A stretch of 64,000 nt of DNA, taken from NCBI RefSeq assembly GCF_003121705.1, contig NZ_PYHR01000002.1, positions 2,790,001-2,854,000 on the forward strand, written 5' to 3'. The notes under the pieces were generated by a model. That model saw nothing but the letters and a program-made list of their open reading frames with translations, was not told the DNA's origin and ran no database searches. Made by a program: the position numbers and the translations under genes. Position 1 is the first letter of the stretch. Each line of letters opens with the position of its first letter. Positions 5,636 through 39,081 of this stretch are shown piece after piece. The stretch is from Serinibacter arcticus (GTDB taxonomy: Bacteria; Actinomycetota; Actinomycetes; Actinomycetales; Beutenbergiaceae).

Positions 5636-6502
5636 ATGCAGGCCTCTGCCCCACGCCGGACCGCTCCCCGCGCGTCCACCAACCTCGCGACCGCCTCCCA
5701 GGGGCGTCGCCACCGTCGCCGCCCTCTCCGCGCCGCCGGCACCCTTCTCCTCGCCCTGACGGCGCTCGTCGGCCTCGGCGGCGTCGCGCACGCAGTGCCC
5801 ACCCCGGGGACGCCCACGCTGACGGTCACCCCGAGCGCCACGGCGGGCGACGTCGTCGACGTCGCCGTGGCGCTCGGCGGGACCGCCGACCTCTACAGCT
5901 CCGCCGTGACGCTGACCTACGACCCCGCGCTGCTGACCTACGCCTCGGGCGAGGTGACCTCCCCCGAGGGTGGCTTCGGCCAGGTGGTGCCCGGCGAGGG
6001 CACGGTGACGTTCGTCTACTCGCGCCTCGGCACGTCACCCGGCATCGAGGGTGACGTCCCCGTCGGCACCGCGCAGTTCACCGCGGCTGCGGCGGGCACG
6101 GCAACGGTCGCGCTCAGCAGCGTGACGGTGGTCGGCGCGGACGGCGTCGGTGCCGGGATCGCCCCGGAGGACCTGCCGAGCCAGGCCGTCGTCATCGAGG
6201 CGGCCCCCACCACGCCGCCGGTCGACCCGACGGATCCCCCGACGGACCCGACCGACCCGCCGACAGACCCGCCGACCGGTCCGACCGACGAGCCCACCGA
6301 CCCGCCGAGCGACCCCACGAGCACCCTCCCGACCACGGGCCCGACCGACACCGCGACGACCGACGCCCCGCCGGCGGCCGGCGCGGCCACCGGAGGCCTC
6401 GCCTCGACCGGCGTCGCCCTGACCGGTCTCGCCGTGGCGGGCACGGTCTTCGTCGTCGTGGGCATCGTGCTGGCCCGACGCCGGACGGTGATGTCGCGAT
6501 GA
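5636..6502 (+). CDS. Secreted, wall-anchored cohesin-domain protein
   Basis: A 288-residue protein. A long basic n-region and hydrophobic core end at AHA (residue about 53). One cohesin-like domain follows (about 54-187): TAGDVVDVAVAL, then YSSAVTLTYDPALLTYAS, then GTVTFVYSR and TAQFTAAAAGTATVALSSV, the strand order of type I cohesins. A Pro/Thr/Asp linker (about 188-254, PTDPPTDPTD repeats) leads to LASTG (255-259), a membrane helix and ARRR, which is a sortase-like sorting signal. The ATG at 5636 is preferred over an in-frame GTG at 5585 because AAAGGA precedes it. The next gene encodes a secreted amidase with a dockerin, so this protein is its likely surface receptor. Confidence 0.75.
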   Translation: MQASAPRRTAPRASTNLATASQGRRHRRRPLRAAGTLLLALTALVGLGGVAHAVPTPGTPTLTVTPSATAGDVVDVAVALGGTADLYSSAVTLTYDPALLTYASGEVTSPEGGFGQVVPGEGTVTFVYSRLGTSPGIEGDVPVGTAQFTAAAAGTATVALSSVTVVGADGVGAGIAPEDLPSQAVVIEAAPTTPPVDPTDPPTDPTDPPTDPPTGPTDEPTDPPSDPTSTLPTTGPTDTATTDAPPAAGAATGGLASTGVALTGLAVAGTVFVVVGIVLARRRTVMSR

Positions 6503-6558
6503 GCGCCGCCCTCCGCCGTCGTCCCCTGCCGTCCCGCCCCCTCGCGAAGGACCAGCCC

Positions 6559-8415
6559 GTGAACCCCTCCCTCCCGTCCCCGGATCGCGGGCGGCGCACC
6601 GGTGCCCTCGCGACGGCGTCGCTCGGCGCCCTCGCCCTCGTCGGCACCCTCGCCGTCCCGGCCCAGGCCACCCCCGTCCCGATCTCCGCCGAGGTGCCCG
6701 CCCCCGCCGGTGCCTCGTTCCTCGCGCCGTACTACACCGAGCTGGACCTCACGGGCGACGACCAGGTCACGCAGGAGGACCTCGCCGTCGTCGCCGCGGC
6801 GCTCGGGGCGACCCCGACCTCCGCGGACTGGATCGCGGAGGCCGACGTCGACGGCGACGGGCTCCTCACGCTCGCCGACCTCGCCGCGATCTCGCAGCGG
6901 ATGATCTACGACGACGGTCCGTTCGAGCTCGTCGAGGCGTCCGTCGTCGAGATGCAGGCCGCCATGAACGCGGGCGTCGTCACCTCCGTCGACCTCACGC
7001 AGGCCTACGCCGAGCGCATCGCGGCCTACGACCGCGTGCAGATCGACCCGGCCGGCCGACCGCTCAACTCGATCATCACGGTGAGCGACGTCGCCCTGGC
7101 GGCGGCGGCCGAGGCGGACGCCACCCGCGCCGCGAACGGCATGACGAGCATGCTGCTGGGCGTCCCGATCGCGCTGAAGGACAACTACAACACCATCGAC
7201 ATGCCCACGTCGGGCGGCTGCGAGTGCTGGGCCGACAACCGGACCAGCACCGACTCCACGATGGTCGAGGGCCTCCGGGCCGATGGCGCGGTGATCCTGG
7301 CGAAGGCGAGCCTCGACGAGTTCGCCTACGGCTTCGCCTCCGAGTTCACCACCGGGCTCTCGGCCGGGCGGAGCGCGCTCGTCGCCAGCCCGTACCTCAC
7401 GACCCGGACGGCGGGCGGTTCCTCGGGCGGGACCGGCGCCGCGGTCTCGGCCAACCTCGTCGGCCTCGGGTTCGGCACCGACACGGGTGGCTCGATCCGC
7501 GTCCCGTCGTCGTACAACCAGCTCGTCGGCATCCGCCCGACCGTCGGCCTCGCCAGTCGCTCGGGCATCATCCCGCTCGCGCTGAGCCAGGACACCGGCG
7601 GCCCGATGGCCCGCACCGTGACGGACGCCGCGGTGGCGCTGGACGCCGTCGTCGGCGTCGACGCCTCCGACCCGGTGACGCTGACGCAGGCCGGCCGTGT
7701 GCCGACGTCCTACACGTCCTCGCTCGACGCCGAGTCGCTCGACGGCGCCCGCATCGGCTACCTGCCGTCCATGCTCAGCACCAACCGGACCACGCTGCGC
7801 CTGTGGGGCGACGCGCGCGTCGCGATGGAGGAGGCCGGTGCCTCGTTCGTCGAGGTCCCGATCTCGGACGAGTTCCGCGCCGTCCTCAACGAGGGCAGCG
7901 GGAGCACGAACGAGTTCAAGCACGACCTCGACCTGTACGTGGCCGAGCACCTCGCGCCGCAGGTGCAGCAGCGCACGATCACGGACATCCTCGCCTCGGG
8001 GAACTTCGTGAACTCGCGCCGCTCGGTCTACGTCCAGCGCGACAACGTCCTCCCGGCCACGTACGAGAGCTGGGCGGGGCCGCAGGGCACCCACACGCTG
8101 CAGCTCGCCCGCGGCAAGGTGCTGCTCGCGCAGCTCATGGACACCTACGACCTCGACGCCATCGCCTACCCGTCGGGCACGCCGTACGGCACGTTCAGCA
8201 CGAACATGCGGCTCAGCCCCAACACCGGGATGCCGTCCGTGACGGTGCCGATGGGCCAGGCGATCGAGGCGGACGCCACGATCACGGGGGCCGGGGTCAA
8301 CCTCGAGCTCCTCGGCCGCGACTTCTCCGAGGGCACGCTGCTCGGCCTCGCCTACGCCTTCGAGCAGGCGACGCAGGCGCGCACCACCCCCGCGCTGTAC
8401 GGCCCGCTGGGGTAG
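6559..8415 (+). CDS. Secreted amidase-signature hydrolase with N-terminal dockerin-like domain
   Basis: A 618-residue protein from the GTG at 6559. The signal peptide ends at AQA (37). A dockerin-like pair of Ca-binding loops follows (about 60-115): DLTGDDQVTQEDL and DVDGDGLLTLADL, each with Asp at loop positions 1, 5 and 12. The amidase-signature domain (about 130-610) shows the catalytic Lys207 (ALKDNYN), the GGSSGG serine and the nucleophile Ser312 (GTDTGGSIRVP), so a Ser-Ser-Lys amide hydrolase. GTG 6559 has GAAGGA 7 bases upstream; an in-frame ATG at 6499 overlaps the cohesin stop as ATGA and would add 20 residues. Amide substrate unknown. It probably docks to the upstream cohesin protein. 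Confidence 0.8.
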   Translation: MNPSLPSPDRGRRTGALATASLGALALVGTLAVPAQATPVPISAEVPAPAGASFLAPYYTELDLTGDDQVTQEDLAVVAAALGATPTSADWIAEADVDGDGLLTLADLAAISQRMIYDDGPFELVEASVVEMQAAMNAGVVTSVDLTQAYAERIAAYDRVQIDPAGRPLNSIITVSDVALAAAAEADATRAANGMTSMLLGVPIALKDNYNTIDMPTSGGCECWADNRTSTDSTMVEGLRADGAVILAKASLDEFAYGFASEFTTGLSAGRSALVASPYLTTRTAGGSSGGTGAAVSANLVGLGFGTDTGGSIRVPSSYNQLVGIRPTVGLASRSGIIPLALSQDTGGPMARTVTDAAVALDAVVGVDASDPVTLTQAGRVPTSYTSSLDAESLDGARIGYLPSMLSTNRTTLRLWGDARVAMEEAGASFVEVPISDEFRAVLNEGSGSTNEFKHDLDLYVAEHLAPQVQQRTITDILASGNFVNSRRSVYVQRDNVLPATYESWAGPQGTHTLQLARGKVLLAQLMDTYDLDAIAYPSGTPYGTFSTNMRLSPNTGMPSVTVPMGQAIEADATITGAGVNLELLGRDFSEGTLLGLAYAFEQATQARTTPALYGPLG

Positions 8416-10479: not shown

Positions 10480-12639
10480 GTGAAGACTCGACCGTTGCCG
10501 ACACGAGTGGCGGGAGGGCTCACGCTGGCCCTCGCGCTCTCGGTGGGCATCCCGGCCGCCGCGTCCGCGGAGCCGGCCGCTCCCGCCGCCGCCGCAGCCG
10601 CCGCGCTCGGCCCGACCGTCACCGCGACGGGCACCGGCCCCACGGGCCACACCGTCACGTTCCGCCACCAGGCGCCCGAGGGCGTCGAGAGCGTGCAGAT
10701 CTTCGGCGAGTGGCTGTTCTCGAAGGCGTCCTCGGTGACGACGCTGACGAGCGCCGACCTGCGCACCGGGGCCGACTGGCTGCCGGGCGACATCCTCGCC
10801 GGGTACAACAACGGCTGGCTCACCGTGCCGATGACCGAGGGCGAGGACGGCGTCTGGGAGTACACGACGCCGCTGCCGTCGGGCACGTTCAGCTACACCT
10901 TCACCTACGACTGCACCTCGCCGACGGCGACCGGGTGCGCGCGGATCCAGGACCCGGCGAACCCGGTGTGGTCCGCGGGCCTGCCGGGTGCCGGCGTGCA
11001 GACGCTCAGCCAGGTCTACGTGCCGCAGAGCGCGGCCGTCCCCACCTACGACAACGACTACCAGGACCCGACCGCCGCCGCAGCGAAGGGGACGCTCGAG
11101 AACCGCAGCTACCCGTCGCCGCTCTCGACGAACCCGGTCGGCACCCACCACGTCTCCGTCTACCTGCCGCCCGGCTACGACGCCGAGCGCGCCGAGCCGT
11201 ACCCGACGCTCTACCTGAGCCACGGCGCCGGCGGCAACGACACGGACTGGACCACGCAGGGCGGGGCCCAGCACATCCTCGACAACGCGCTCGCGAGCGG
11301 AGACGTCGCCGAGATGGTGATGGTCTCGACCGACTTCAACGGACTGCCCGGCGGCAGCCAGGGCTACGCCGACGAGCTGCGCACGAACGTCATCCCGTTC
11401 ATCGAGGCCGGCTACAACGTCTCGGTCGAGCGCGAGGACCGCGCGTTCGGCGGACTCTCGGCCGGCGGCGGTCGCGCCGTCGTGATCATGCAGGACAACC
11501 CGGACCTGTTCGGGTACGTCGGGGCCTGGAGCGCCGCCGGCGCCTTCACGCCGCCGACGCCGGCGCAGGTCGCGAACCTCCAGCAGGCCACCGCCCTCCA
11601 CCTCGGGACCGGCCTGCAGGACGTGCTCGCCAACATCAACGTCAACTCCGTCAACCGCAGCAACGCCTACGTCGCGCTCGGCCTCCCGGTCGTGCAGGAC
11701 GACTTCGACGGCATCCATTCGTGGGACGTGTGGCGCCAGCTGCTGCGCGACTACCTCCACACCGTCGCGTTCCGCACGACGACGACGACCGTCACCGCCG
11801 GTGACGCCGTCGCCGGGGGGTCCACGTCGCTCGTCGCGCAGGTCGACGCCGTCAGCGTCGGCGCCGACCCGAGCGGTACCGTGACGTTCCACGCGGGCAC
11901 CGACGCGAGCGGTGCGGTGCTCGGCACGGCCGAGGTCGCGGCCGACGGTTCGGCCACGACCGAGGTGGTTTTCGCCGAGGCCGGCGCCACCTCCGTCGTC
12001 GCGGTGTTCGACGGCGGGGACGTGCACAACGCCTCGACGTCGGAGGCGGTGACCCTCGAGGTCCTGGCGTTCACCGACATCGCGGACAACCAGTTCGTGG
12101 GCGAGATCTCGTGGCTCGCCGAGGCGAACATCTCCGCCGGGTGGAGCAACGGTGACGGGACGTTCTCCTACCGCCCGCTGGCCTCGATCGCGCGCGACGC
12201 GATGGCGGCCTTCCTCTACCGGGCGGCCGGCTCGCCCGACTTCACGCCGCCGACGACCTCGCCGTTCACCGACGTGCCGACCACCAACCAGTTCTACACG
12301 GAGATCGCCTGGCTCTCGGAGAAGGGCATCTCCACCGGCTGGGACAACGGCGACGGGACGTTCTCCTTCCGCCCGCTCGAGCCGATCGCCCGTGACGCGA
12401 TGGCCGCGTTCCTGCACCGCTCGGCCGGGTCGCCGGTCGTCGCGCTGCCCGCGACCTCGCCGTTCGAGGACGTGCGCCCCGACAACCAGTTCTACGCCGA
12501 GATCGCCTACGTCCACGCCGAGGGCATCGCCACCGGATGGGCCGGGAACGACGGCCGGGACTACTACCAGCCGCTGGCCCCCGTGGCCCGCGACGCCATG
12601 GCGGCCTTCCTGTACCGCGCCCTCGACCGGGAGGTGTGA
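10480..12639 (+). CDS. Secreted esterase with Ig-like and SLH-like domains
   Basis: A 719-residue protein. The signal peptide ends near ASA (about 29). An E-set/CBM48-like domain (about 42-180) precedes an esterase-D-type alpha/beta hydrolase (about 215-420) with nucleophile Ser327 in GGLSAGGG and probable catalytic His413 in DGIHSWDVW, as in feruloyl/acetyl-xylan esterases. A bacterial Ig-like domain (about 430-525) and three SLH-like repeats (12060-12636), each ending ARDAMAAFL, follow. The SLH-like repeats probably hold the enzyme at the cell surface. GTG start with an AGGA-type site upstream. It is followed by a strong terminator, then a second enzyme with the same tail. Confidence 0.85.
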   Translation: MKTRPLPTRVAGGLTLALALSVGIPAAASAEPAAPAAAAAAALGPTVTATGTGPTGHTVTFRHQAPEGVESVQIFGEWLFSKASSVTTLTSADLRTGADWLPGDILAGYNNGWLTVPMTEGEDGVWEYTTPLPSGTFSYTFTYDCTSPTATGCARIQDPANPVWSAGLPGAGVQTLSQVYVPQSAAVPTYDNDYQDPTAAAAKGTLENRSYPSPLSTNPVGTHHVSVYLPPGYDAERAEPYPTLYLSHGAGGNDTDWTTQGGAQHILDNALASGDVAEMVMVSTDFNGLPGGSQGYADELRTNVIPFIEAGYNVSVEREDRAFGGLSAGGGRAVVIMQDNPDLFGYVGAWSAAGAFTPPTPAQVANLQQATALHLGTGLQDVLANINVNSVNRSNAYVALGLPVVQDDFDGIHSWDVWRQLLRDYLHTVAFRTTTTTVTAGDAVAGGSTSLVAQVDAVSVGADPSGTVTFHAGTDASGAVLGTAEVAADGSATTEVVFAEAGATSVVAVFDGGDVHNASTSEAVTLEVLAFTDIADNQFVGEISWLAEANISAGWSNGDGTFSYRPLASIARDAMAAFLYRAAGSPDFTPPTTSPFTDVPTTNQFYTEIAWLSEKGISTGWDNGDGTFSFRPLEPIARDAMAAFLHRSAGSPVVALPATSPFEDVRPDNQFYAEIAYVHAEGIATGWAGNDGRDYYQPLAPVARDAMAAFLYRALDREV

Positions 12640-12794: not shown

Positions 12795-12853
12795 GTGACG
12801 TCATCATGGGTGCTCACCTACTCAATGCTGAGGAGTTCTGACGATGACGTCAC
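12795..12853. promoter_or_regulatory. Inverted pair of GATGACGTCAC sites at the GH43 start
   Basis: GTGACGTCATC (12795-12805) and its exact reverse complement GATGACGTCAC (12843-12853) both centre on the palindrome TGACGTCA, 49 bases apart. The second covers the ATG. The AGGAG ribosome site (12831-12835) lies between them. A repressor bridging both would block translation or transcription start; the binding protein is unknown. Confidence 0.35.
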
Positions 12854-15800
12854 GCACGAGAAGGGGTGCGGTGGTGATGGCCGCCGCACTCGCCGTCGGA
12901 CTGGTGCCGTCGCTGGTCGCGACCGGCGCCGCCGCCGCCCCGGGGGACGGGGTGCCCTCCACGGACACCCCGATCACCTACACGACGTTCGGCGCGATCC
13001 AGGACGGCGGACTGACCTCCGCGGGCTACTTCCAGCCGTTCTGGTACGACACCGACGGCCGCCACATCCAGGCGCACGGCGGCCAGACGGTCACCGTCCA
13101 GGAGGCGGGAGAGACCGTCCACTACTGGTACGGCGAGGACCGCAGCAACGGCTACTGGGGCAGCCCCGGCGTCGCCGTCTACCGCTCCACCGATCTGATG
13201 AACTGGACCAACGAGGGCACCGCGATGCGCAGCGTGAGCGCGCGCGACGAGCTCACCGAGCCGTACTTCGACGACCTCTACGGCACGCTGGACGCCTCCG
13301 GCCAGCCCGACGACGCCCGGATCGACGAGCTGAACTTCCACCTCAACACCACCCAGGCCGAGGACTACACGGCGATCTTCGAGCGTCCGAAGGTGCTCTA
13401 CAACGACGCCACCGACGAGTGGGTGATGTGGTGGCACTCCGACGGGCGCATCACGCCGGGCGGAAGCACCTACGCGCGCTCGTTCGCCGCGGTCGCCGTC
13501 GCCGACAGCCCCACCGGACCGTTCCGGATGACCGGCGCCTACCGCCTCTACAACCGCGCGAACTACCAGGCGTGCACGTCCTCGGCCGTGCCCGGCCAGG
13601 CGCGCGACATGACGGTGTTCAAGGACGCGGACGGCACGGCGTACATCTCCTACTCCTCCGAGGAGAACTACTCCCTCTACATCGCGAAGCTGAACGCGGA
13701 CTACACGAACGTCGAGCACACGGTGCCGACCGACACGATCGGCGCGCACCAGTACTCCGAGGACGGCGAGTTCCCGTACATCTTCGCGGACGGGACGGCG
13801 GACGCCCCGGTGCGCGGGGAGGACTTCCAGATCGTCAAGGAGTGCGGCCACCTCGAGGCGCCCGCGATCTTCGCCAACGGCGACACCTACGCGACGCTCG
13901 CCTCGGGTGCCACGGGCTGGGGCCCGAACCCGCAGACCTACTACACGGCCGACGACCTGCTCGGCACGTGGATCCGCGGCGTCGAGGCCGACGACGTGCA
14001 CGAGAACGTCAACTACGCCTCCATCCCCGAGGGCGGTGACGGCCTGCTGTCGGTCGGCGACGTCCGCAAGACGACGTTCGGCTCGCAGGGCACGAACGTC
14101 ATCACGCTCGCCCCCGGCAAGTACGTCTACATGGGTGACCGCTGGAACGAGGGCAAGAACGACTCGACCTACGTCTGGCTCCCGCTCACGGTCGGCGAGA
14201 ACGGCCGCCTCGAGATGCACAACCCGGCGATCGAGGACCCGGCCCGCTGGGGCCAGGGCTGGGACGCGAGCTACTGGGACGACAAGGGCTACGGCGTCGG
14301 GACCTGGTCGGTGACCGAGGACGGCCTGGTCGACACGGTCGCCCGCGGCACCGACCCGGCCACCGTCCTGCCCACCACCGTGACCGTCGACTCGGCCGGG
14401 ACGACCCGGACCACCGGGGTGACCTGGAGCGACGTCGACCTCGGACGTCTCGGGAAGCAGACCGTCACCGGGACGCTCGACGGCGATGCCACGTTCGCGG
14501 ACGGGCGGACGTTCCGCCGCACGATCACCGTGACGGCCGACGGCATCGTCAACATCGCACCGCTGGCCGCCGTCACGGTCAGCAGCCGGTCCGACCTGGC
14601 CGGCCGCCTCACCGACGGCGACGTCAAGGGCAAGGGCTGGGACGACTGGGCCGCGGCCGGCGCCTACCCGCGCAGCAGCACGCTGACGTTCGCGTGGGAC
14701 GCGCCGCGCACGCTCGACTCCATCGCCGTCCACACCTACAAGGACAGCGGGGTCGCCAGCTGGCCCTCCGCCATCGCCGTGCAGGTGCGCGACCAGAGCG
14801 GCGCGTGGGTCGACAGCCCCCTGGCCGCCCAGCTGCTGCAGGACCCGAGCCTCCCGGCCCCGACGGCGCTCCTGGACGCCACGGAGCTGCCCGAGGTCAC
14901 GGGGGTCCGGCTCCGGCTGACCAGCGAGGCCGACACCTGGCAGGCGATCTCCGAGGTGGAGATCTGGGGCGACGCCCCGCCGGTCAACGTCTGCCGCGCG
15001 CCCGGGTCGACCGTCTCGGCGTCGTTCCACCAGACCCGGTGGAACACGTTCCCGGCAGCCGGGGCGTGCGACGGCAACGCCGGCACGTCGTGGTCGACCT
15101 GGTCCGACACGGACCTGCGCGACTCGGTCACCTTCACGATCGAGGCGGCGCAGGCCCACCTTCTCGACCGGGTGAGCTTCACCAACATCGAGGGCACCAT
15201 CGCCTCGGTCGGCGTGGAGTACCGCGACGTCGACGGCACCTGGACGCCGACCAGCGCCCAGGACGTGGCTCCGGCTGCGAACAGCACCGTGACGACGATC
15301 GGTTTCGACGACGTCACGGCCACCGGCCTGCGGCTCACCTTCGCGACCCCCGGCTCCTACCTCAAGATCACCGAGATCCAGGTGCCCGAGAAGGTCGTGG
15401 CGCCGGTCGTCTCCCCGTTCCTCGACGTCCCCGTGGACAACGAGTTCTTCACCGAGATCGCCTGGCTCGCCGAGCAGCGCATCTCCACGGGGTGGACGAC
15501 CGAGGCCGGCGTGGAGTTCCGTCCCCTGGCGCCGATCGCCCGCGACGCCATGGCGGCGTTCCTCTACCGGATGGCGGGGTCGCCGGAGTTCACGGCCCCG
15601 ACCACGTCGCCGTTCACCGACGTGCCCACCACCAACCTGTACTACGACGAGATCGCCTGGCTCGCCGACCAGGAGATCTCCACGGGGTGGGCCGTCGGGG
15701 CGGGTGCGGAGTTCCGCCCGCTCGAGCCGATCGCCCGCGACGCGATGGCGGCGTTCCTCTACCGCTACGCCGGGGCGGTGCTCGGGACGGACGTCGAGGG

Positions 15801-16008
15801 CTACGTCACGCCGACCACCTCACGGTTCGAGGACGTCTCCCCGGCGACGCTCTACCACCGGGAGATCTCCTGGCTGGCGGACGCGGAGATCTCCACCGGC
15901 TGGGACCTCGGTGAGGGTCGCGCGGAGTACCGGCCGCTGAGTCCGGTCGCCCGGGACGCGATGGCGGCGTTCCTGTACCGCTCGGTGGACGGCGCCGACA
16001 TCGGCTGA
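12844..16008 (+). CDS. Secreted GH43 (galactan 1,3-beta-galactosidase-like) with F5/8C and SLH-like domains
   Basis: A 1054-residue protein. The signal peptide ends near AAA (about 33). A GH43 five-blade propeller (about 38-475) carries HGGQTVTVQEAGETVHYWYGE, ERPKVLYND (Glu180), RDMTVFKDADG, EAPAIF and YMGDRWNEG, the pattern of exo-beta-1,3-galactanases (GH43_24). An Ig-like domain (about 480-565), two F5/8-type (CBM32-like) modules (about 570-850) and three SLH-like repeats (856-1050) follow. It probably trims beta-1,3-galactan side chains of plant arabinogalactan while attached to the cell surface; substrate is inferred from family. AGGAG lies 8 bases before the ATG. Confidence 0.85.
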   Translation: MTSRTRRGAVVMAAALAVGLVPSLVATGAAAAPGDGVPSTDTPITYTTFGAIQDGGLTSAGYFQPFWYDTDGRHIQAHGGQTVTVQEAGETVHYWYGEDRSNGYWGSPGVAVYRSTDLMNWTNEGTAMRSVSARDELTEPYFDDLYGTLDASGQPDDARIDELNFHLNTTQAEDYTAIFERPKVLYNDATDEWVMWWHSDGRITPGGSTYARSFAAVAVADSPTGPFRMTGAYRLYNRANYQACTSSAVPGQARDMTVFKDADGTAYISYSSEENYSLYIAKLNADYTNVEHTVPTDTIGAHQYSEDGEFPYIFADGTADAPVRGEDFQIVKECGHLEAPAIFANGDTYATLASGATGWGPNPQTYYTADDLLGTWIRGVEADDVHENVNYASIPEGGDGLLSVGDVRKTTFGSQGTNVITLAPGKYVYMGDRWNEGKNDSTYVWLPLTVGENGRLEMHNPAIEDPARWGQGWDASYWDDKGYGVGTWSVTEDGLVDTVARGTDPATVLPTTVTVDSAGTTRTTGVTWSDVDLGRLGKQTVTGTLDGDATFADGRTFRRTITVTADGIVNIAPLAAVTVSSRSDLAGRLTDGDVKGKGWDDWAAAGAYPRSSTLTFAWDAPRTLDSIAVHTYKDSGVASWPSAIAVQVRDQSGAWVDSPLAAQLLQDPSLPAPTALLDATELPEVTGVRLRLTSEADTWQAISEVEIWGDAPPVNVCRAPGSTVSASFHQTRWNTFPAAGACDGNAGTSWSTWSDTDLRDSVTFTIEAAQAHLLDRVSFTNIEGTIASVGVEYRDVDGTWTPTSAQDVAPAANSTVTTIGFDDVTATGLRLTFATPGSYLKITEIQVPEKVVAPVVSPFLDVPVDNEFFTEIAWLAEQRISTGWTTEAGVEFRPLAPIARDAMAAFLYRMAGSPEFTAPTTSPFTDVPTTNLYYDEIAWLADQEISTGWAVGAGAEFRPLEPIARDAMAAFLYRYAGAVLGTDVEGYVTPTTSRFEDVSPATLYHREISWLADAEISTGWDLGEGRAEYRPLSPVARDAMAAFLYRSVDGADIG

Positions 16009-30436: not shown

Positions 30437-30472
30437 TAACGTGAGTAACACGTTAGGTAACCGTTTGGTTAC
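30437..30472. promoter_or_regulatory. Two adjacent inverted repeats in the pilus promoter region
   Basis: TAACGTG-agtaa-CACGTTA (30437-30455) and GTAACC-gttt-GGTTAC (30457-30472) lie in an AT-rich island 130-165 bases before the giant adhesin gene. GTAAC occurs repeatedly in both orientations. Probable promoter and regulator-binding region. No gene is seen in 30326-30600. Confidence 0.5.
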
Positions 30473-30600
30473 GACTTACTTCTGGGGGTGCGTCCCGCTC
30501 TCTCGGCCTCTACGTTCGTCCCAGGTGAGCACGTCCCGCTGTCAGCGTGGCGCGCCACCGAGGCCGGGGGGCCCACGCCAGTGCAGGGAGCACCACCACG

Positions 30601-33600
30601 ATGTCGACGACCGGCCGGCACCCCGCGAGTCGCCGCGGGCTGCGCCGTCGTCGTCGGGAGCGCACGGCCCGGCTGCGGTCCGCCGTCGTCGTCGTCCTCG
30701 CCCTCGTCGTCCTGATCTCCGCGAGCCCGGCCCTCGCGCTCCGCTTCGGAGCGGTGACGGTCGGCACCCCCGCGACCACCGCGACCCAGACCTACACGCA
30801 GGCCAGCACCCCCAACCAGACGGCGACGTGGACCACCAGCCCGACCTCGCTCTCGACGGGCACGACGAGCTGGCAGTGGTTCGGCATCACCGATGCGGTG
30901 CTGGGCGCCTCCGGCTTCCCCGCCACGGTGCCGACCGCCCAGCGTGTCGCCCGCTCCATCAGCGTGCCGGCCGCCGGCTGCAGCTTCACCGCCCCGCTCG
31001 TGACCGAGTGCGTGAATCGCGGCACGGTCACGGTGACGTTCGACCGCGCCGTCACCAACCCGATCCTCTACGTCGCCGGCCTGGGCGAGGCGCCCCTCCT
31101 CAGCTTCTACCGCATGGGGGCCTACCTCGACGTGACGACGGCGAACGTCACGATGGCCACTCCCACCGCCGGCGCCACCAACCTCCAGGTCGTGGGTGGC
31201 ACGCGGCTGCAGACCGTCAACACGCGGCCGTCGGGGTCGTGCAACCCGCTGCTCGGCCTCGACAACCAGGCGGGCTGCGGCGCCGTGGTGCTCCAGGGAA
31301 CGTTCACGTCCGTGACCTTCAGCACCGGGATCCGGGTCCAGGGCGAGATCGGCAGCGGCAACGTCGGCGCCGGCGTCGTCGACTCCCTCGCGCTCTACAT
31401 CGCCCTTCAGGACCAGCCGCTCCCGGTCGCGAACCCCGACACCTTCTCGGCCGTCGCCGGGACGACCGGCGCCCCGCAGAGCCTGCTCGCCAACGACGTC
31501 GCGGCGGCGGGCTTCCCCCTCGTCCCCGCGAGCACGGTGTTCACGGCCACCACCGGATGGACGCTGACCAACAACAACCGCACGGCCACCGGCGCGGGCA
31601 TCGGTACCGCGGAGATCAGCGCCACCACGGGCCTGGTCACGTTCGCGCCGGTCGCCGGGTACGCGGGTCCCTCGGGCCCGATCAACTACCAGATCACCGA
31701 CAGCGTCGGCAGCACCGCCACCTCCACGGTGACCTTCAACGTGGCTACGGGCGCGCTCGCGTGCGGCACCACGGTCTACCAGATCAACGCCTCGGGCGAG
31801 GTGCGCGGTGTCCCGACGAGCGCGGTCGGCAACGCCGCGAACGCGACCTCGACGCCGCTACTCCCCGCCGTCAGCGGGACCACCGAGGCGAACGCCCTCG
31901 GCATCGCCGCCGGGGGCACCTCGGTCATCTACATCGCCACCCGCGGCGGCTCCGCCGTCGCCACCCGGTACGACACGGTGGCCGGCACCTACACCCACAC
32001 GACCGTGACCCCGCCGGGCGTGCGCGTCGCGGGTGCCGTCAACCCCGTCAACGGCTTCTACTACTACGGCGGCGTGGCCACCGGCAGCGCGATCTACATG
32101 TTCAACCCCACCACGGGCGTCAGCTTCCAGGTCGGCACCTCGCCGGGCTCGGCCGGCGGCAACGGCGACTACGCCTTCACCTCGGCGGGGGACATGTTCA
32201 TCCTCAGCGACGCCGTGATCACGGCGGTCAGGGCTACCGACCTCCCGACGACGCAGGGCACCGCTGCGATCACCGGCTCGGTGATCTCGAGCGGACAGTC
32301 CCAGACGAGCAACGGCATCGCGTTCGGCGGCGACGGCTTCATGTACGTCAACAACACGAACACGGGCAGCTCGAACCTGCAGCGCGTCGACCCGGTCACG
32401 GGTGCGCTCGGCGGGACGCTCGGCACCACGACGCGGGCGACGACGTCCACGTTCGCCAGCATCGACCTCGGGGCGTGCGCCCCGACCGCCAGCATCCGGG
32501 TGGAGAAGGACGTCGCCGCCCGCGCCCTCACCACCGACCAGTTCACCCTGCAGCTCGCCACGACCGGCGCCACCGCGCTCACCGGCACCACGACGGGCGC
32601 GGCGACCGGCGTCCAGAGCGTCGCGGCCGGGCCGATGATCGGCCAGGTCGGCCGCACCTACACCTTCACCGAGACCGGCGCCGGGACCCCGGCGGCCCAG
32701 CTCGGCGCCTACCGCCCGACCTGGACGTGTCGCAACGGCGCGACCGGTACGACGCTCACCACCGGCACCGGTGCGACGGGCACGTACGCCTTCACGGAGG
32801 CGAGTCCCACGACCGTCGTCTGCACGTTCCGCAACGCGACGGGTCCGCTGCTGTCGGTCGACAAGACGGCCTCGGCCACGAGCTTCACGGTCGGTCAGCC
32901 GGCGAGCTACGCCGTCGCCGTCACGAACACGGGTCAGAGCGCGACGACGGCGCCCATCACCGTGACCGACGTGCTCGCCACGGGCATCACGTTCACCGGG
33001 GCGTCCGGCGCGGGCTGGTCCTGCACGGGCACCGGCACGCTCACCTGCACGTACACGGGCACCCTCGCACCGGGCGCGACGACGACCCTCACGCTCGGCG
33101 TGACGCCCACGATCGCCGCCGTCACGGGCAACAACACCGCCACCGTCAGCGGTGGCGGTGACCCGACGTGCTCCGCGGCGGGACGCTGCTCCGACCAGGT
33201 CGCCGTCAGCCTGACGGCCAACTCCGGGCGCCCCGTGCAGTGCAACGCGCTGTGGGGGCTCGCGGGGGGCTCGCCCACGGCCACGCCGGCAGGCAACCAG
33301 GTCTACACGTTGGACACGACCACCGGGGCGGCCACCCGCTTCACCACCACCCCGGTCTCGACGACGAACAACGACCTCGGCAACACCTCGTCGCTGGCGA
33401 TCGACCCGCGGACCGGACGACTGTTCGCGGCCGACAACCTCGGCACGCTCGCGATCCGCACGCTCGCTCCCGGGTCGACCACCTGGACCACGACGACGGC
33501 GGTCGTCCCCGGCGCGGCCGGCGTCAACGGCGTCGCCCGCGCGGTGATGGACGGCGGCGGCTTCCTCTACATCGGCCGGAACACCGCCGACAACGGGACG

Positions 33601-36216
33601 ATCTACCGCTACCCGGTGGGTCTGGACGGGTCCGTCGGGGCACCGACGACGATCCCCGTCACCGGCATCCCGACCACGGGCCTGGGCGGCGGCGACTTCG
33701 CGATCGCGCCCGACGGCACGTTCTACCTCGGGGCGGCCAACGCCGGCACCGTCTCGCTCTACCGGATCGCCCCCACGGCTCCGGCGACGTCGATGAGCGC
33801 CGCGGCCGCGGCGACCGCCACCCTCGTCCCGACGTCGCAGACGGTGTCGGGCTCGACCGACCTCGGCGGCCTCGCCTTCCAGAGCGGGACGCTCTACGGC
33901 GCCGGGTCCACGGCGTCGCTCTTCCGGTTCAACCTCACCTCCTCCGGGCCGACCGGCACGTGGCCCGCCGCCGGCGGCACGACCGTGATCGGTCCCACCG
34001 GTGTGGCGATCTCCGACACGGCAGGCTGCGCGGGAGCGGCGACCGTCCAGCTGGCCAAGACGTCGGTCTCCGGGACCGGCACGTTCGGCTTCACCGGGCT
34101 GACGAACGTGGCCGACAACGTCGGCACGGCCGTCACCACCGACCAGATCACCACCACGACCGCGGGCACCACGGTGCGCTCCGCCTCCACCCACGTCGTC
34201 ACGCGGCTCGCGACGGCCGTGACGGCGACCGAGACGCCGACCCCGGGCTGGAGCGTCGTCTCCGGGGCCGGCCTCTGCACCGACACCAACAGCGCCGTCA
34301 CCGGCAACCCCGCCACGTTCGGCACGATCACCGGCGCCGGGGCGCTCGCCGTCCCGGCCGTCAACGTCCGCGCCGGCGCGGCGATCGTCTGCACGGTGAC
34401 GAACACCCTCGACCCCGTCCTCGCGACGTCGAAGACGCTCGCGCAGGTCAACGGATCGGCGGCCGTGCCCGGTCAGACGGTGCGCTCCGGGGATGTGCTG
34501 ACCTACACGATCACGACCGGCAACACCGGCGGGGCCGGGAGCGTCACGCTGACCGAGCAGGTCCCGGCGGGCACCACCTACACCGGCGCCGGGCAGGGCT
34601 GGAGCTGCGCCGGCGGGTCGACGGCGGGGACCGGGTGCTCGCAGAACGTCTCCGTCCCGGCCGGCGGCTCCGCGAGCCGCAGCTTCACCGTCACGGTCGG
34701 CGGTGGCACGCTGCCGGCGTCGATCTCCAACACGGTGTCCGCCTCGTCCGGCACGTGCGCCTCGTGCACGGTGACCACCGCCGTCACCCCGCTCGTGCCC
34801 GTGACGAAGGTGGTCGTGAGCCCGACGCTCCCGGCCGTCGCGGGCGGCACGGTGGTCACCTACCGCCTGACGCTCGCCAACGGCGCCGGGGTCGCGGGGT
34901 TCGTCGACCACCAGGACGTGTTGACCGGCGTCCTCGACGACGCCGTGTGGCCCAGCCCCGGCGGCGTCCCCGCGCAGCCGCAGGTCGCCCCCGCCGGAAG
35001 CGTCACCGCGAGCTACTCCGCCGCGACCCAGCGACTCACGCTCGGCGGCACGGTACCCGCCGGTCAGAGCGTCACCGTGACCTACCAGGTGCAGGTGAAG
35101 CCGTGGGACGAGGTGGCGGCGGGGGCGGGGGACGCGACGCTGCGCAACGCCGTCGTCCGCACCGGCGCCACCCCGCCCCCGACGTGCGCGCCCGGCTCCA
35201 CGACCTGCACCACGACCCCGATCGCCAGCTACTCGCTGACGAAGTCGTCCCTGCCCGTGCCCGCCACCTCGGTCGACCCGGGCGAGCGGATCGACTACAC
35301 CGTCACGGTCGCGAGCGCCGCGCGCAGCACCGGGCCGGTGACGGGCGTGCAGGTCACCGACAACCTCACCGACGTGCTGGCGGACGCCGCGTTCGTGCCC
35401 GGGTCCGTCGTGCTCACGGTCGGGGCGGGCGCACCGCAGCCGCTCGCCGTCGCTCCCGCGCTCGACCCGGTCACGCAGCAGTGGCTGCTCACCTCGCCCG
35501 CGTTCACGCTCCCGGCCGGCGCGACGGCGACGCTCCGGTACGCCGTCGAGGTGGCCGACGTCGCGTGGTTCGCGCAGCTGCGCAACGTCGCCGGCGTGAC
35601 TGGGGGCATCCCGCCGGCGCAGTGCCTCTACGTGCCCGGCGCCCCGCCCGGCGGTCCCACCCTGCCGGCGTGCGAGAACGTCCACGTCGTCAACGGGTTC
35701 GTCGAGCTGGCCAAGGTCGGGCTGGACGGGTCGGGGAGCACGGTGCCGATGGCGGGCTCGGCCTTCGCGATCCACACGATCGTGGTGCAGGACGACGAGC
35801 CCGTCCTCGGGCCGGTGCTCGCGGGTGTGACGCCCGAGCCGGTGCCTGGCCTGACGGGGCGGTTCGCCGTCGCCGGCATCCCGGTGGGCAGCTACCTCCT
35901 CGTCGAGACCCGGGCCCCCGAGGGCTACTCGCTGCTCGCCCGGCCCGTCCCGTTCGAGGTGACCGCGCAGGGCACGGTCCTGCTCGACGGCGCGCAGGCG
36001 CCCGCGGTCACGGTCGCCAATCCGCCGGGGGTGACGTTCCCGGTGCTGACCGTGCGGGACGTCCCCCGGTTCGCCATCCCCGAGGCGGGAGGGACGGGCC
36101 AGAACCCGTTCCACGCCGTCGGGCTCGGCCTCCTCGCGGGTGCGCTCGCGATCCTGGGCCGTCTCCAGCTCCGGCGACGTGCCGGCACCCGCCCCGCCGT
36201 CGAGGGGAGGAGCTGA
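30601..36216 (+). CDS. Giant surface adhesin / pilus tip protein with sortase signal
   Basis: An 1871-residue secreted protein. A basic n-region and signal core end near ALA (about 47). An N-terminal beta domain follows, then a CshA-like repeat (PVANPDTFSAVAGTTGAPQSLLAND), beta-propeller-like segments (about 390-620 and 890-1150), DUF11 conserved repeats (LLSVDKTASATSFTVGQ; VLATSKTLAQVNGSAAV; SYSLTKSSLPVPATS) and a SpaA-type domain with YLLVETRAPEGYSLL (about 1700-1800). The end is IPEAG (1826-1830), a membrane helix and RRR, an LPxTG variant. As first gene before the major pilin and a class C sortase it is the likely tip adhesin. The ATG at 30601 has AGGGAG 10 bases upstream. Confidence 0.85.
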   Translation: MSTTGRHPASRRGLRRRRRERTARLRSAVVVVLALVVLISASPALALRFGAVTVGTPATTATQTYTQASTPNQTATWTTSPTSLSTGTTSWQWFGITDAVLGASGFPATVPTAQRVARSISVPAAGCSFTAPLVTECVNRGTVTVTFDRAVTNPILYVAGLGEAPLLSFYRMGAYLDVTTANVTMATPTAGATNLQVVGGTRLQTVNTRPSGSCNPLLGLDNQAGCGAVVLQGTFTSVTFSTGIRVQGEIGSGNVGAGVVDSLALYIALQDQPLPVANPDTFSAVAGTTGAPQSLLANDVAAAGFPLVPASTVFTATTGWTLTNNNRTATGAGIGTAEISATTGLVTFAPVAGYAGPSGPINYQITDSVGSTATSTVTFNVATGALACGTTVYQINASGEVRGVPTSAVGNAANATSTPLLPAVSGTTEANALGIAAGGTSVIYIATRGGSAVATRYDTVAGTYTHTTVTPPGVRVAGAVNPVNGFYYYGGVATGSAIYMFNPTTGVSFQVGTSPGSAGGNGDYAFTSAGDMFILSDAVITAVRATDLPTTQGTAAITGSVISSGQSQTSNGIAFGGDGFMYVNNTNTGSSNLQRVDPVTGALGGTLGTTTRATTSTFASIDLGACAPTASIRVEKDVAARALTTDQFTLQLATTGATALTGTTTGAATGVQSVAAGPMIGQVGRTYTFTETGAGTPAAQLGAYRPTWTCRNGATGTTLTTGTGATGTYAFTEASPTTVVCTFRNATGPLLSVDKTASATSFTVGQPASYAVAVTNTGQSATTAPITVTDVLATGITFTGASGAGWSCTGTGTLTCTYTGTLAPGATTTLTLGVTPTIAAVTGNNTATVSGGGDPTCSAAGRCSDQVAVSLTANSGRPVQCNALWGLAGGSPTATPAGNQVYTLDTTTGAATRFTTTPVSTTNNDLGNTSSLAIDPRTGRLFAADNLGTLAIRTLAPGSTTWTTTTAVVPGAAGVNGVARAVMDGGGFLYIGRNTADNGTIYRYPVGLDGSVGAPTTIPVTGIPTTGLGGGDFAIAPDGTFYLGAANAGTVSLYRIAPTAPATSMSAAAAATATLVPTSQTVSGSTDLGGLAFQSGTLYGAGSTASLFRFNLTSSGPTGTWPAAGGTTVIGPTGVAISDTAGCAGAATVQLAKTSVSGTGTFGFTGLTNVADNVGTAVTTDQITTTTAGTTVRSASTHVVTRLATAVTATETPTPGWSVVSGAGLCTDTNSAVTGNPATFGTITGAGALAVPAVNVRAGAAIVCTVTNTLDPVLATSKTLAQVNGSAAVPGQTVRSGDVLTYTITTGNTGGAGSVTLTEQVPAGTTYTGAGQGWSCAGGSTAGTGCSQNVSVPAGGSASRSFTVTVGGGTLPASISNTVSASSGTCASCTVTTAVTPLVPVTKVVVSPTLPAVAGGTVVTYRLTLANGAGVAGFVDHQDVLTGVLDDAVWPSPGGVPAQPQVAPAGSVTASYSAATQRLTLGGTVPAGQSVTVTYQVQVKPWDEVAAGAGDATLRNAVVRTGATPPPTCAPGSTTCTTTPIASYSLTKSSLPVPATSVDPGERIDYTVTVASAARSTGPVTGVQVTDNLTDVLADAAFVPGSVVLTVGAGAPQPLAVAPALDPVTQQWLLTSPAFTLPAGATATLRYAVEVADVAWFAQLRNVAGVTGGIPPAQCLYVPGAPPGGPTLPACENVHVVNGFVELAKVGLDGSGSTVPMAGSAFAIHTIVVQDDEPVLGPVLAGVTPEPVPGLTGRFAVAGIPVGSYLLVETRAPEGYSLLARPVPFEVTAQGTVLLDGAQAPAVTVANPPGVTFPVLTVRDVPRFAIPEAGGTGQNPFHAVGLGLLAGALAILGRLQLRRRAGTRPAVEGRS

Positions 36217-36394
36217 CCGCCGCCGGGACGACGTGCGGCTGCTGACCCAGCCGCTCCCGAGCCGGGTCGACCACGGACGGTCGACCACCCGCAGTGCCTG
36301 CACGACGCCTGACCCGCTCGTCTCTCTGCACCACCCCTGCACGACCTTCTGCACCACCCCCTGACAGCTCGACCGACCACCGAGGAGTGGACAC

Positions 36395-37948
36395 ATGACT
36401 ACGACGACCCGGACGCGCACACGCCGCGTCTCCGCCGCCGCCCTTGCCGGGGCGGTGCTGCTCGCCGTCGGCCTGGGCACCGCCGCCGTCGCGGCCCCCG
36501 TGATCGAGGAGGGCACGGTCGGCTCGCTGACCGTGCACAAGTTCCAGGCGCCCGACACCCTGCCCGACCTGCCGAACGACGGCTCCGAGATCACCGAGCC
36601 GATCGACGCCCTCCCGCTCGCGGGCGCCCAGTTCACGATCTACGAGGTCGAGGGGATCGACCTCACGGAGAACCAGGGCTGGCAGGACGCCGCCGCGCTG
36701 GAGGGGACGTTCGACCCCGCGACAGTCCTGCCCGGCTCCGTCCCGGCGACCGCCGGCGCCTACACGCTGACGCAGGTCGGTCAGCAGACGACCAGCGCGA
36801 CCGGCGTCGCGGCCTTCACGGGCCTGCCGATCGCCCTCTACCTCGTGGTGGAGAGCTCGACGCCGACCGGCTTCACGCCGGTGCCCTCGTTCATGGTGAC
36901 CGTGCCGCTGACGCTCACGGCCGAGGGGGCTACCGAGCAGGCCTGGGAGTACGACGTCCACGTCTACCCCAAGAACCCGAGCTTCACGGCCACGAAGACG
37001 GTCGCCGACGCGATCGACCAGGAGGACGCCGTCGTCGGGGACCAGATCGTCTACACCGTGACCGGTGACATCCCGGCCCAGGGTCTGGACGCGTACCGCA
37101 TCGCCGACACGCTCGCGACGCAGCTCACCTACGCGCCCGACGACACCCAGTCGGACATCGTGCTCTCCGTGAGCGGCTCGGCAGGCGAGACGCTGACGTT
37201 CGGGACCGACTACACGGTCGCCGTCGCCGGCCAGACCCTCACGGTCGACCTCACCGCGGCCGGCCTCGCCACGGTGGCCGAGGCGAAGTCGCTGGACGCG
37301 ACCGCCCAGGTCGTCATGGCGCTGACCGTCACGGTGAACGCTCCGGGCGAGATCTCCAACACGGCGAACGTCTTCCCGAGCGCCGCCGCGATCGCGAACG
37401 TCATCCCGACCGTCACGCCCGCGGTCGTGTCCAAGTGGGGCAGCGTCGCGATCGCGAAGACGTCCTCCGACACCACGATCACGGCCCTCGGCGGAGCGAC
37501 CTTCGAGGTGTACTACACGACCGGGAGCGAGTGGGACGGCGACCCCGACACGGCCACGCAGGTCGACGTCAACGGCGTGACCACGTGGACGACGACGGCC
37601 ACCGGCACCGTGACCATCGGCGCCCTGCGCTACAGCGACTGGGCGAACGGCGCGGAGGTGCCGGCCGGTGCGGACGACTTCCGTCAGTACTGGCTGGTCG
37701 AGACGGTCGCCCTGGCCGGTCACGAGCTGCTCGCCGAGCCCGTCGGCTTCCTCATCGAGGATCTCGACGAGACGACGACGACGCCGACCGTGGCGCCGGC
37801 CCCGATCGTCAACGTGCCGAGCAACGCCGGCTTCGAGCTGCCCTTCACCGGTGGCATCGGGACCGTGTGGTTCACGGTCGCCGGGGTTCTGCTGCTCGGT
37901 GGTGCCACGCTGCTGGTGGTGCGTCAGCGCCGTCGCACGCAGGCGTGA
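36395..37948 (+). CDS. Major pilin, SpaA-type, LPxTG-anchored
   Basis: A 517-residue protein. The signal peptide ends at VAA (about 33). A SpaA-like first domain is followed by the pilin motif WEYDVHVYPKN with Lys193, the residue that class C sortases link to the Thr of the next subunit. Two isopeptide-type domains follow (FTATKTVADAIDQEDAVVGD; VAIAKTSSDTTITALGGATF), with E-box-like Glu in YLVVESSTP and YWLVETVALAG. The C-terminus is LPFTG (482-486), a helix and RQRRR. It forms the shaft of a covalent pilus. The sortase gene follows after two strong hairpins. Confidence 0.92.
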   Translation: MTTTTRTRTRRVSAAALAGAVLLAVGLGTAAVAAPVIEEGTVGSLTVHKFQAPDTLPDLPNDGSEITEPIDALPLAGAQFTIYEVEGIDLTENQGWQDAAALEGTFDPATVLPGSVPATAGAYTLTQVGQQTTSATGVAAFTGLPIALYLVVESSTPTGFTPVPSFMVTVPLTLTAEGATEQAWEYDVHVYPKNPSFTATKTVADAIDQEDAVVGDQIVYTVTGDIPAQGLDAYRIADTLATQLTYAPDDTQSDIVLSVSGSAGETLTFGTDYTVAVAGQTLTVDLTAAGLATVAEAKSLDATAQVVMALTVTVNAPGEISNTANVFPSAAAIANVIPTVTPAVVSKWGSVAIAKTSSDTTITALGGATFEVYYTTGSEWDGDPDTATQVDVNGVTTWTTTATGTVTIGALRYSDWANGAEVPAGADDFRQYWLVETVALAGHELLAEPVGFLIEDLDETTTTPTVAPAPIVNVPSNAGFELPFTGGIGTVWFTVAGVLLLGGATLLVVRQRRRTQA

Positions 37949-38004
37949 CGTGCGGGGGCGTCCGTGGGGGCGAGACGCCCCGCGCGTGATGTCGAGCGTG
38001 TGAC

Positions 38005-38078
38005 GCCGTCGGGGTGGGCGGGGCGGACCCGCCCACCCCGACGGCAGGTGGCGGCGTGCCGGGGGGCACGCCGCCACC
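38005..38078 (+). terminator. Two back-to-back perfect hairpins between pilin and sortase genes
   Basis: 18-bp stem GCCGTCGGGGTGGGCGGG (38005-38022 against 38028-38045, loop GCGGA), then one base later a 14-bp stem GGTGGCGGCGTGCC (38047-38060 against 38065-38078, loop GGGG). Both are perfect. They probably attenuate read-through from the pilin into the sortase gene and protect the pilin mRNA. Confidence 0.75.
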
Positions 38079-38142
38079 GTCCTCGTCCCCCGGCTGATGC
38101 CGCGTCCGCGAACGACCCAAACTCGAGGAGAGGAGCACCGCG

Positions 38143-39081
38143 ATGAGCCGGACCGTCACCACCGCCCGCCACGGCGCGGTACGCACGGGGCTGCTCGCCG
38201 CCTGGCGCCGGAGTTCCGCCATGACCTGGCAGCATTGGCTCGTCGTGGTCGTCGCCGTCGCCGGCGTGGGCGTGCTGCTCTACCCGACGGCGGCGAGCTG
38301 GTTCACCGCGAGGGTGCAGGCCGGCCAGATCGCGAGCTACAGCGAGAGCGTGGAGGCGATCGGGTCGCAGGAGGTCGATCAGATGCTCGCCGACGCGCGG
38401 GCCTACAACGAGTGGTTGCCCAAGGGCCCGCTGCGCGACCCGTTCCGCCCCGACGGCGTGGTTCAGACCGCCGTCGGCGACTACGTGGCGGAGTACTACA
38501 GCAAGCTCGCGGTCCCGGAGAGCGACGCGATGGCTCGGCTGAGCATCCCGGCGATCGGGGTGGACCTTCCCGTGCTGCACGGCACGGATCCGGCGGCGCT
38601 CACGCGCGGGGTCGGTCACATCTTCGGCTCCTCCCTTCCCGTGGGGGGTGAGGGCACGCACAGCGTGCTGACGGCCCACTCGGGCTACGTGAACGCGGTC
38701 CTCTTCGACAACCTGGCCCGGCTCGACCACGGCGACACCTTCTCCATCCACGTGCTCGGCGAGGACCTGCACTACCGCGTCGACCAGATCCTGGAGGTGC
38801 TGCCCGACGAGGCGGACAGCCTCCAGGTGGTGGACGGCCACGACTACGTCACCCTCATCACGTGCACCCCGATCGGGATCAACACCCACCGGCTGCTCGT
38901 GCGCGGCGAGCGGGTCGACGACCCGGACGCCGGCACCGGTCAGACGATCTCGGCGGCGTCGCCCCCGACCGCCCCCGGGTTCCCGTGGTGGGCGGTGGCG
39001 ATCCTCGCGACGGCGGCGCTGTCCTACGGGGCGGCGCGGCTCTCGACTCCGGCGACGGCGTCTACTCCGGCGTCGCGGTAG
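38143..39081 (+). CDS. Class C (pilus-assembly) sortase
   Basis: A 312-residue membrane transpeptidase. It has an N-terminal helix (WLVVVVAVAGVGVLLYPTAASWF), a lid segment with the class C DPF motif (LRDPFRPDG), catalytic His179 in TAHSGY, Cys241 in LITCTPIGINTHR and Arg250, and a C-terminal membrane helix (FPWWAVAILATAALSYGAARL). It polymerises the upstream pilins by joining the sorting-signal Thr to the pilin Lys. The ATG follows GAGAGGAGC. A separate housekeeping sortase for wall anchoring is not in the window. Confidence 0.94.
   Translation: MSRTVTTARHGAVRTGLLAAWRRSSAMTWQHWLVVVVAVAGVGVLLYPTAASWFTARVQAGQIASYSESVEAIGSQEVDQMLADARAYNEWLPKGPLRDPFRPDGVVQTAVGDYVAEYYSKLAVPESDAMARLSIPAIGVDLPVLHGTDPAALTRGVGHIFGSSLPVGGEGTHSVLTAHSGYVNAVLFDNLARLDHGDTFSIHVLGEDLHYRVDQILEVLPDEADSLQVVDGHDYVTLITCTPIGINTHRLLVRGERVDDPDAGTGQTISAASPPTAPGFPWWAVAILATAALSYGAARLSTPATASTPASR

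Follow-up and report, generated by a model that had tools for sequence, protein, structure and literature searches.

We analysed a stretch of 64,000 nucleotides of the Serinibacter arcticus genome (assembly GCF_003121705.1, contig NZ_PYHR01000002.1, positions 2,790,001 to 2,854,000; hereafter the window), in which two overlapping genes of the forward strand encode a cohesin protein with a putative cell wall sorting signal and a dockerin-bearing amidase [Table 1]. The first product, a protein of 288 amino acids (aa) whose signal peptide, read by eye, ends in VAHA (5783-5794), matches the Pfam model Cohesin (PF00963) with 37.0 bits over aa 65-170, against a gathering cut-off of 24.1. The second, of up to 638 aa and with a signal peptide that ends, again by eye, in AQA, matches Dockerin_1 (PF00404) with 24.0 bits as a whole protein and 29.1 bits as a module alone (cut-off 22.9), and the amidase domain model PF01425 with an E-value of 7e-73. 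A preliminary description of this DNA had read here a secreted cohesin protein with a Pro/Thr linker and an LASTG-helix-ARRR tail, adjoined by a secreted amidase with two dockerin-type calcium-binding loops; both genes are confirmed in these terms, each module exceeding the cut-off of its Pfam profile. The stop codon of the cohesin gene overlaps the amidase ATG at 6499 by 4 bases. A GTG at 6559 has, by eye, a better ribosome site than this ATG, and the true start of the amidase may be either codon.

Table 1. Features of the cohesin and dockerin-amidase gene pair, in window coordinates
Feature	Position	Strand	Basis or remark
Anchor gene (signal peptide, single cohesin, Pro/Thr linker, LASTG, hydrophobic helix, ARRR tail)	5636..6502	+	Open reading frame and Pfam
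Cohesin module	5816..6202	+	Encloses the Pfam match at aa 65-170; conserved S-R-L-G-T-S-P strand at 6017-6040
Pro/Thr-rich linker, presumed wall-spanning	6206..6382	+	Sequence
Sorting signal: LASTG (6398-6412), hydrophobic stretch, ARRR; class E sortase type LAXTG	6398..6484	+	Pattern
Dockerin-amidase gene	6499..8415	+	Start ATG 6499 or internal GTG 6559
Dockerin module, calcium-binding loops 6745-6780 and 6844-6879	6745..6900	+	Pfam and loop reading
Amidase-signature catalytic domain; Lys in LKDN 7174-7185, GGSSGG 7414-7431, DTGGSIR 7480-7500	6919..8394	+	Pfam and motifs

A search of the host genome (4.06 Mb, 99.7 percent complete) for further cohesins and dockerins, as the preliminary description had suggested, returned none over the Pfam cut-offs: the single cohesin and the single dockerin that pass are those of this pair, which leaves the dockerin a single candidate partner there, and two more dockerin matches, with E-values of 0.29 and 0.55, fall below the cut-off. 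Membership in a cellulosome was rejected, since a single module of each kind passes its cut-off and a multi-cohesin scaffoldin is lacking; nor is there cellulosomal glycoside hydrolase (GH) cargo, the sole dockerin over cut-off sitting on an amidase. The earlier proposal of a "one scaffold, one enzyme" tether for the amidase is supported by the genomic tests, namely the profile matches, the single copies and the co-occurrence described below, and gains further support from a fusion, from rearrangements in which the two genes swap order yet stay adjacent and from exchanges of anchor type. We consider it very probable, on the strength of the sequence comparisons that follow, that the pair is a two-gene, monovalent, one-to-one, sortase-anchored and non-cellulosomal cohesin-dockerin system for the display or tethering of one amidase.

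Much depends on the identity of the two modules. Scanned singly at E 0.01, the Cohesin model matches 24 of 25 cohesin sequences of the family, and Dockerin_1 all 26 dockerins, some of them below its cut-off (16.3 bits in genome G022). Asp occupies position 12 of both dockerin loops in 25 of 25 sequences, a trait of dockerins unlike canonical EF hands; the window dockerin also has Asp at positions 1 and 5 of both loops, a few relatives (L040, L074, L075, L076) have Asn or Ser at positions 1/5, and position 3 of the first loop is Thr, Ser or Asn. Were the "dockerin" an ordinary EF-hand pair that aids the folding of the amidase, and the "cohesin" a generic beta-sandwich, one would have to explain these Asp residues, the fit of Dockerin_1 to every sequence, its higher score on the window module (29.1 bits versus 23.6 for EF-hand_7, the latter under its own cut-off) and the solved cohesins retrieved by the family cohesin profile (that of NagJ with E 1.5e-8 and the ScaB adaptor cohesin with E 2e-8). 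Such an origin would nonetheless accommodate the match of EF-hand_7 to 17 of the 26 dockerins and the whole-protein score of the window dockerin, which lies barely above cut-off. Two results weigh against our assignment in the same sense: the solved structures that the dockerin profile retrieves are EF-hand proteins of the calmodulin type and not dockerins (60 of 324 matches listed), and the window cohesin, searched as a single sequence, retrieved no cohesin among the solved structures, just a chance match. Taking both sides together, we regard an EF-hand pair beside an unrelated sandwich as extremely unlikely.

Conservation of the gene pair was surveyed in 396 genomes of the order. Pfam matches gave a cohesin in 16 genomes and a dockerin in 18, in 15 cases on this amidase. 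At E 0.001, PF00963 overlooks 4 of the 19 cohesins that family profiles detect (G086, G179, G280, G290) and PF00404 overlooks 4 of the 19 dockerins (G022, G179, G224, G290), and Pfam alone was therefore set aside as a survey tool. The family profiles were built from 25 of 31 cohesin and 26 of 33 dockerin sequences (near-copies, L020, L051 and L052 being omitted) and were scored on the best 10 cohesin and 14 dockerin first-look candidates per genome, a scheme that weak relatives could escape. The cohesin profile finds 19 of the 396 genomes, that of the window included, with E-values below 1e-37; the dockerin profile finds the identical 19, with E-values below 1e-27. Each holds exactly one of either module, and at profile strength no genome carries one partner without the other. 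This count was made after the removal of weak matches (a cohesin in G265, E 5e-4; a dockerin in G030, E 2e-4; other large frames), and a PF00963 match in G259, located within a 4186-aa frame of repeats, was dropped as unrelated. The 19 genomes span 11 genera and 5 families, and two relatives from the same genus as the host, G004 and G005, have neither the cohesin nor the dockerin-amidase. The partners are adjacent on one contig in 17 of the 19, lie at the ends of two contigs in G391 and share a single reading frame in G204. The naive chance of such co-occurrence, about 1e-32, is a guide only, as the genomes share descent; the real point is the patchy, all-or-none distribution.

Named genomes were scanned with the dockerin-amidase alignment, and among the best 80 of 255 loci a dockerin is present on 16 amidases, with a cohesin gene alongside 14 of these. 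At the remaining two loci (Cellulosimicrobium cellulans JZ5 and Cellulomonas iranensis) a contig end cuts the locus, and the cohesin was found on another contig of the same genome. The 64 dockerin-free loci have no cohesin in flanks of up to 5 kb per side (14/14 versus 0/64; Fisher p 1e-15, kinship ignored). The genomes behind 10 of the 16 loci, the two cut loci among them, were searched, and in every one both the cohesin and a dockerin over cut-off were found. Apart from Paenibacillus, these genomes are actinobacterial, and each of the nine has a single cohesin and a single dockerin that pass the cut-offs. Curtobacterium, Agreia, Leifsonia, Microbacterium, Frigoribacterium, Cellulosimicrobium, Cellulomonas, Oceanitalea, Oerskovia, Nocardioides and Paenibacillus are among the hosts of the 16 loci, some of which repeat genomes of the order survey (L068/G377, L075/G238, L064/G391) and are not to be counted twice. 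In a wider sample of 336 genomes of the phylum, the window genome alone gave a strong match, and three weak matches lie in frames of over 2000 aa.

The arrangement of the two genes varies while their adjacency is kept. Amidase-first order is seen in G065, G238, G276, Nocardioides and Paenibacillus, and cohesin-first order in the others, where 21 of the 22 junctions examined have a 4-base RTGA overlap of start and stop codons (L068 repeats L045; L052 is not among them). In G204, a draft genome of the same order that is 69 percent complete, a 980-codon open frame (L048:201-2984) fuses dockerin, amidase, cohesin and LAVTG in this order, the dockerin scoring 26.1 bits as an excised stretch and 21.1 bits, under the cut-off, in the whole protein. 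An anchor at the end of the fused enzyme is what would be expected if the separate proteins function as one. Among 20 loci (the window and 19 others) the amidase recurs in all 20 and flanking families in two at most; the cohesin clusters in just 5, because crude gene calling often took an overlapping frame and because cohesins diverge fast.

These observations bear on the possibility that the modules are, by descent, a genuine cohesin and dockerin that have ceased to pair, the dockerin stabilising the amidase or binding another target, the cohesin belonging to a separate surface protein, and both kept together as one inherited operon. Co-occurrence among relatives is not independent, and the dockerin-amidases form one clade of single origin, so that inheritance could account for it. 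The mirror-tree comparison, made with 25 of 30 pairs (near-copies L038, L039 and L045 and the later loci L051 and L052 left out), gave a partial r of 0.39 over all 25 pairs (a value reached in 29 of 5000 permutations), 0.21 without Paenibacillus (63/5000) and 0.09 in the main, derived clade (912/5000), where it detects nothing beyond shared descent; with the main-clade signal missing, it was discarded as proof of contact. A few dockerins, moreover, stand on other proteins in order genomes without a match to the cohesin profile: PF00404 matches large amidase-free proteins in G030, G249 and G348. It also matches a second protein in G065, and two cohesins of the family, described below, have no recognisable anchor. 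That the genes have parted ways functionally is nevertheless very unlikely, since they remain adjacent through changes of order, since flanking families are shared by two of 20 loci at most, since one genome fuses them, and since neither occurs alone at profile strength. We note that the dockerins of L023, L049 and L050 (G065, G249 and G348, the latter two without a cohesin-profile match) lie near the C-terminal end of large proteins, in open frames of 1375-1459 aa.

Attachment of the cohesin protein to the cell wall is suggested by its C-terminal end. Of 31 cohesins, 27 were examined for an anchor (L042 is cut by a contig end, L052 was left out, and L068 and L075 are repeats), and 24 of these end in a sorting-signal pattern composed of L-x-x-TG, a hydrophobic stretch and basic residues (17 LAxTG, 5 LPxTG and 2 LSxTG); the Paenibacillus cohesin partner has three SLH domains in place of the sorting signal. 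The host genome encodes a class E sortase (248.7 bits against a cut-off of 160) in addition to four class C sortases, and class E sortases are reported to use LAXTG in actinobacteria (PMC5148588). By its LASTG..ARRR pattern and the presence of this sortase gene, the tail of the window protein fits the substrates of class E enzymes, and its processing is predicted. Several observations weigh against a wall tether: the tail of the window protein is recognised by none of the Pfam or NCBIfam anchor models, the NCBIfam ones call only part of 15 relatives (the two commonest match 5 each), and the cohesins of G065 (L037:6464-6988) and Nocardioides (L074:6704-7864) have no recognisable anchor among the 27 examined, which speaks against a universal tethering role. 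The silence of the anchor models on the window tail and the two anchorless cohesins would suit a real complex that is not tied to the wall, in which the cohesin serves mainly to help secrete or stabilise the amidase and the two are released together. Set against the sorting-signal pattern in 24 of 27 proteins, the SLH domains of one more and the SLH domains found directly on four dockerin-free Paenibacillus amidases, release of this kind appears highly improbable.

Other surface proteins are encoded in the window. At 36395-39081, a pilin-like gene (GramPos_pilinD1, SpaA, LPXTG) is followed by a class C sortase gene, probably forming a sortase-built pilus cluster, and two long frames upstream of it (30441-36245) match none of the Pfam models. 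Secreted esterase-like and GH43-like proteins (10480-12639 and 12844-16008) bear C-terminal SLH-type repeats, recognized by the Pfam SLH model in the first only, and the genome may therefore use two kinds of surface attachment. Upstream of the gene pair lie genes for a GH42-type beta-galactosidase, for a TetR-type regulator and for a short-chain dehydrogenase, and downstream one for an OsmC-like protein; a promoter and terminator scan gave nothing useful.

The history of the enzyme adds to the case for surface attachment. In an amidase tree made by a quick method from the 87 of 90 sequences that were long enough, all 26 dockerin-bearing amidases fall on one side of a branch with a Shimodaira-Hasegawa-like approximate likelihood ratio test (SH-aLRT) support of 99, and dockerin-free amidases of Paenibacillus and Bacillus (Bacillota) neighbour this clade. 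Within it, Paenibacillus SY21-1 is outermost, followed by Oerskovia, the fused G204 and Nocardioides; the amidase comes first in Oerskovia and Nocardioides and also in G065, which falls within the cohesin-first clade. In the dockerin-free Paenibacillus amidases L078-L081 the enzyme has SLH domains of its own, over cut-off in 4 of 4 scanned. The same enzyme lineage thus appears wall-bound in four ways: through SLH domains directly, through a dockerin and a cohesin-SLH protein, through a dockerin and a cohesin-LAxTG protein, and through fusion to a cohesin with LAVTG. Surface attachment seems conserved while its hardware changes, and this is, in our view, the strongest functional argument for the tether. 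In a cohesin tree, the Paenibacillus and actinobacterial anchor cohesins stand apart from enzyme-internal ones (97/98), but the tree gives no indication that the Paenibacillus cohesin belonging to the amidase lies nearer to the actinobacterial cohesins than its paralogues do. A joint transfer of the pair is thus inferred rather than read from the tree. Spread by plasmids was considered and rejected: the cohesin had no tblastn match in the plasmid set, and the 1171 records matched by the window amidase are all below 60 percent identity, the 10 matches listed starting at or after the end of the dockerin.

In Paenibacillus sp. SY21-1 (G405) the searches gave 14 cohesins at E 0.01, a figure that covers those inside enzymes, and 11 dockerins. 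In the stretches analysed, eight of its cohesin genes (L166-L173) encode three SLH domains each; seven of them adjoin a gene that is positive with the dockerin profile, and the eighth (L171) lies about 4.6 kb from one. Two of the eight pass the Pfam cohesin cut-off, four are just under it and two are uncalled, so several of these cohesins rest on the family profile. Six of the seven dockerin proteins scanned have an internal cohesin, and all seven match FIVAR at E 0.01, four of them above its cut-off. Pfam leaves the dockerin uncalled in two of these seven (L172, L173) and also in L169:11504-16000. One array (L167) combines one cohesin gene with four dockerin proteins, and not every pair in this strain is therefore strictly one to one. 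GH43, GH3, GDSL-type, amidase, GH10 and other families are represented in the L166-L173 regions, a multi-pair non-cellulosomal system. A broader scenario, which we offer as conceivable rather than probable, is that monoderm bacteria use cohesins and dockerins not just for multi-enzyme scaffolds but also as private one-to-one sockets, in which an enzyme would be encoded alongside its own wall-anchored cohesin. Paenibacillaceae would hold many of these on SLH domains, and one pair, that of an extracellular amidase, would have passed to actinobacteria, exchanged its anchor for one of the sortase type and spread with both genes together as a unit, yielding a wall-held, calcium-locked enzyme that removes amides at the surface, perhaps those of C-terminally amidated peptides.

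The enzyme itself is predicted to be active, as its catalytic motifs are intact: the Lys (KDN), GGSS and DxGGSxR elements of the Ser-cisSer-Lys machinery are all three present in 25 of 25 amidases. The solved chains closest to the window amidase are the peptide amidases 1m21 and 5ac3 (E 2e-69), and none of the NCBIfam models is over cut-off among the 25 of 29 matches listed. We tentatively favour peptide or small amides as likely substrates, and peptidoglycan amides are possible.

The tether that we propose would operate as follows. Both proteins would be exported by their signal peptides, and the cohesin protein would be cut at LASTG and joined to peptidoglycan by the class E sortase, its Pro/Thr linker projecting the single cohesin outward. 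The N-terminal dockerin of the amidase, with its two calcium-binding loops, would fold upon export, calcium probably being needed, and plug into the cohesin, so that each anchor retains a single amidase at the cell surface. The overlap of the genes would permit coupled translation of the two products near a 1:1 ratio. The enzyme would then act outside the cell on small or peptide amides, as its closest solved relative, a peptide amidase, suggests.

Peer et al. reportedly found in 2009 that lone non-cellulosomal cohesins and dockerins are mostly without known partners. Among the titles and abstract openings listed in literature searches, none describes a dockerin-amidase paired with a cohesin, and that 2009 survey of non-cellulosomal modules may list some of the present proteins. 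What looks new is a two-gene, one-to-one arrangement that is conserved in actinobacteria and serves an enzyme other than a glycosidase, with swapping of anchors and a fusion. Cohesins and dockerins were reported absent from Cellulosimicrobium cellulans F16 (PMC4562250) and from three cellulomonad genomes (PMC3544764); the strain and the species concerned are other than those found here, and the present pair places a cohesin and a dockerin in actinobacteria, Cellulosimicrobium and Cellulomonas species included. One candidate partner per genome makes the question of partnership testable with two small proteins. If the binding proves true, the pair would be a minimal natural system of surface display that exists in LAXTG and SLH versions and would be of use in engineering.

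Among known systems, the closest cohesin by profile is the non-cellulosomal one of the Clostridium perfringens glycosidase NagJ (PDB 2o4e, 2ozn, 2jh2, 2w1n), which binds the FIVAR-dockerin modules of other secreted enzymes. The NagJ cohesin sits on the enzyme, whereas the cohesin described here is borne by a dedicated anchor protein that has a single partner gene. The peptide amidase of Stenotrophomonas maltophilia (PDB 1m21/1m22) is likewise an amidase-signature enzyme, shares the three catalytic motifs and is alignable over aa 141-631; the match begins past the dockerin of the window protein, and we know of no anchor partner for the Stenotrophomonas maltophilia enzyme. The cohesin-SLH genes of Paenibacillus sp. 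SY21-1 embody the same idea with another anchor, and the amidase-cohesin pair of this strain is the nearest relative found in Bacillota; it differs in having eight anchors and at least eleven dockerins (on GH10, GH43, GH3 and other proteins), most of the dockerin proteins scanned carrying an internal cohesin of their own. The anchoring scaffoldins of cellulosomes combine a cohesin with a wall-binding module and fall into SLH- and non-SLH-anchoring classes, as described elsewhere (PMC11557425). The present system resembles them in joining a cohesin to a means of wall attachment (LPxTG or SLH) and in placing the dockerin on the enzyme, but differs in having a single cohesin and a single dockerin over cut-off in the whole genome, in lacking a multi-cohesin scaffold, in its amidase cargo and in its actinobacterial hosts. 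With the LAXTG display by class E sortases in actinobacteria it shares signals of the LAXTG type and the presence of a class E sortase gene; the displayed proteins described there are chaplins (PMC5148588), whereas the anchor protein of the present pair would offer a socket to another protein.

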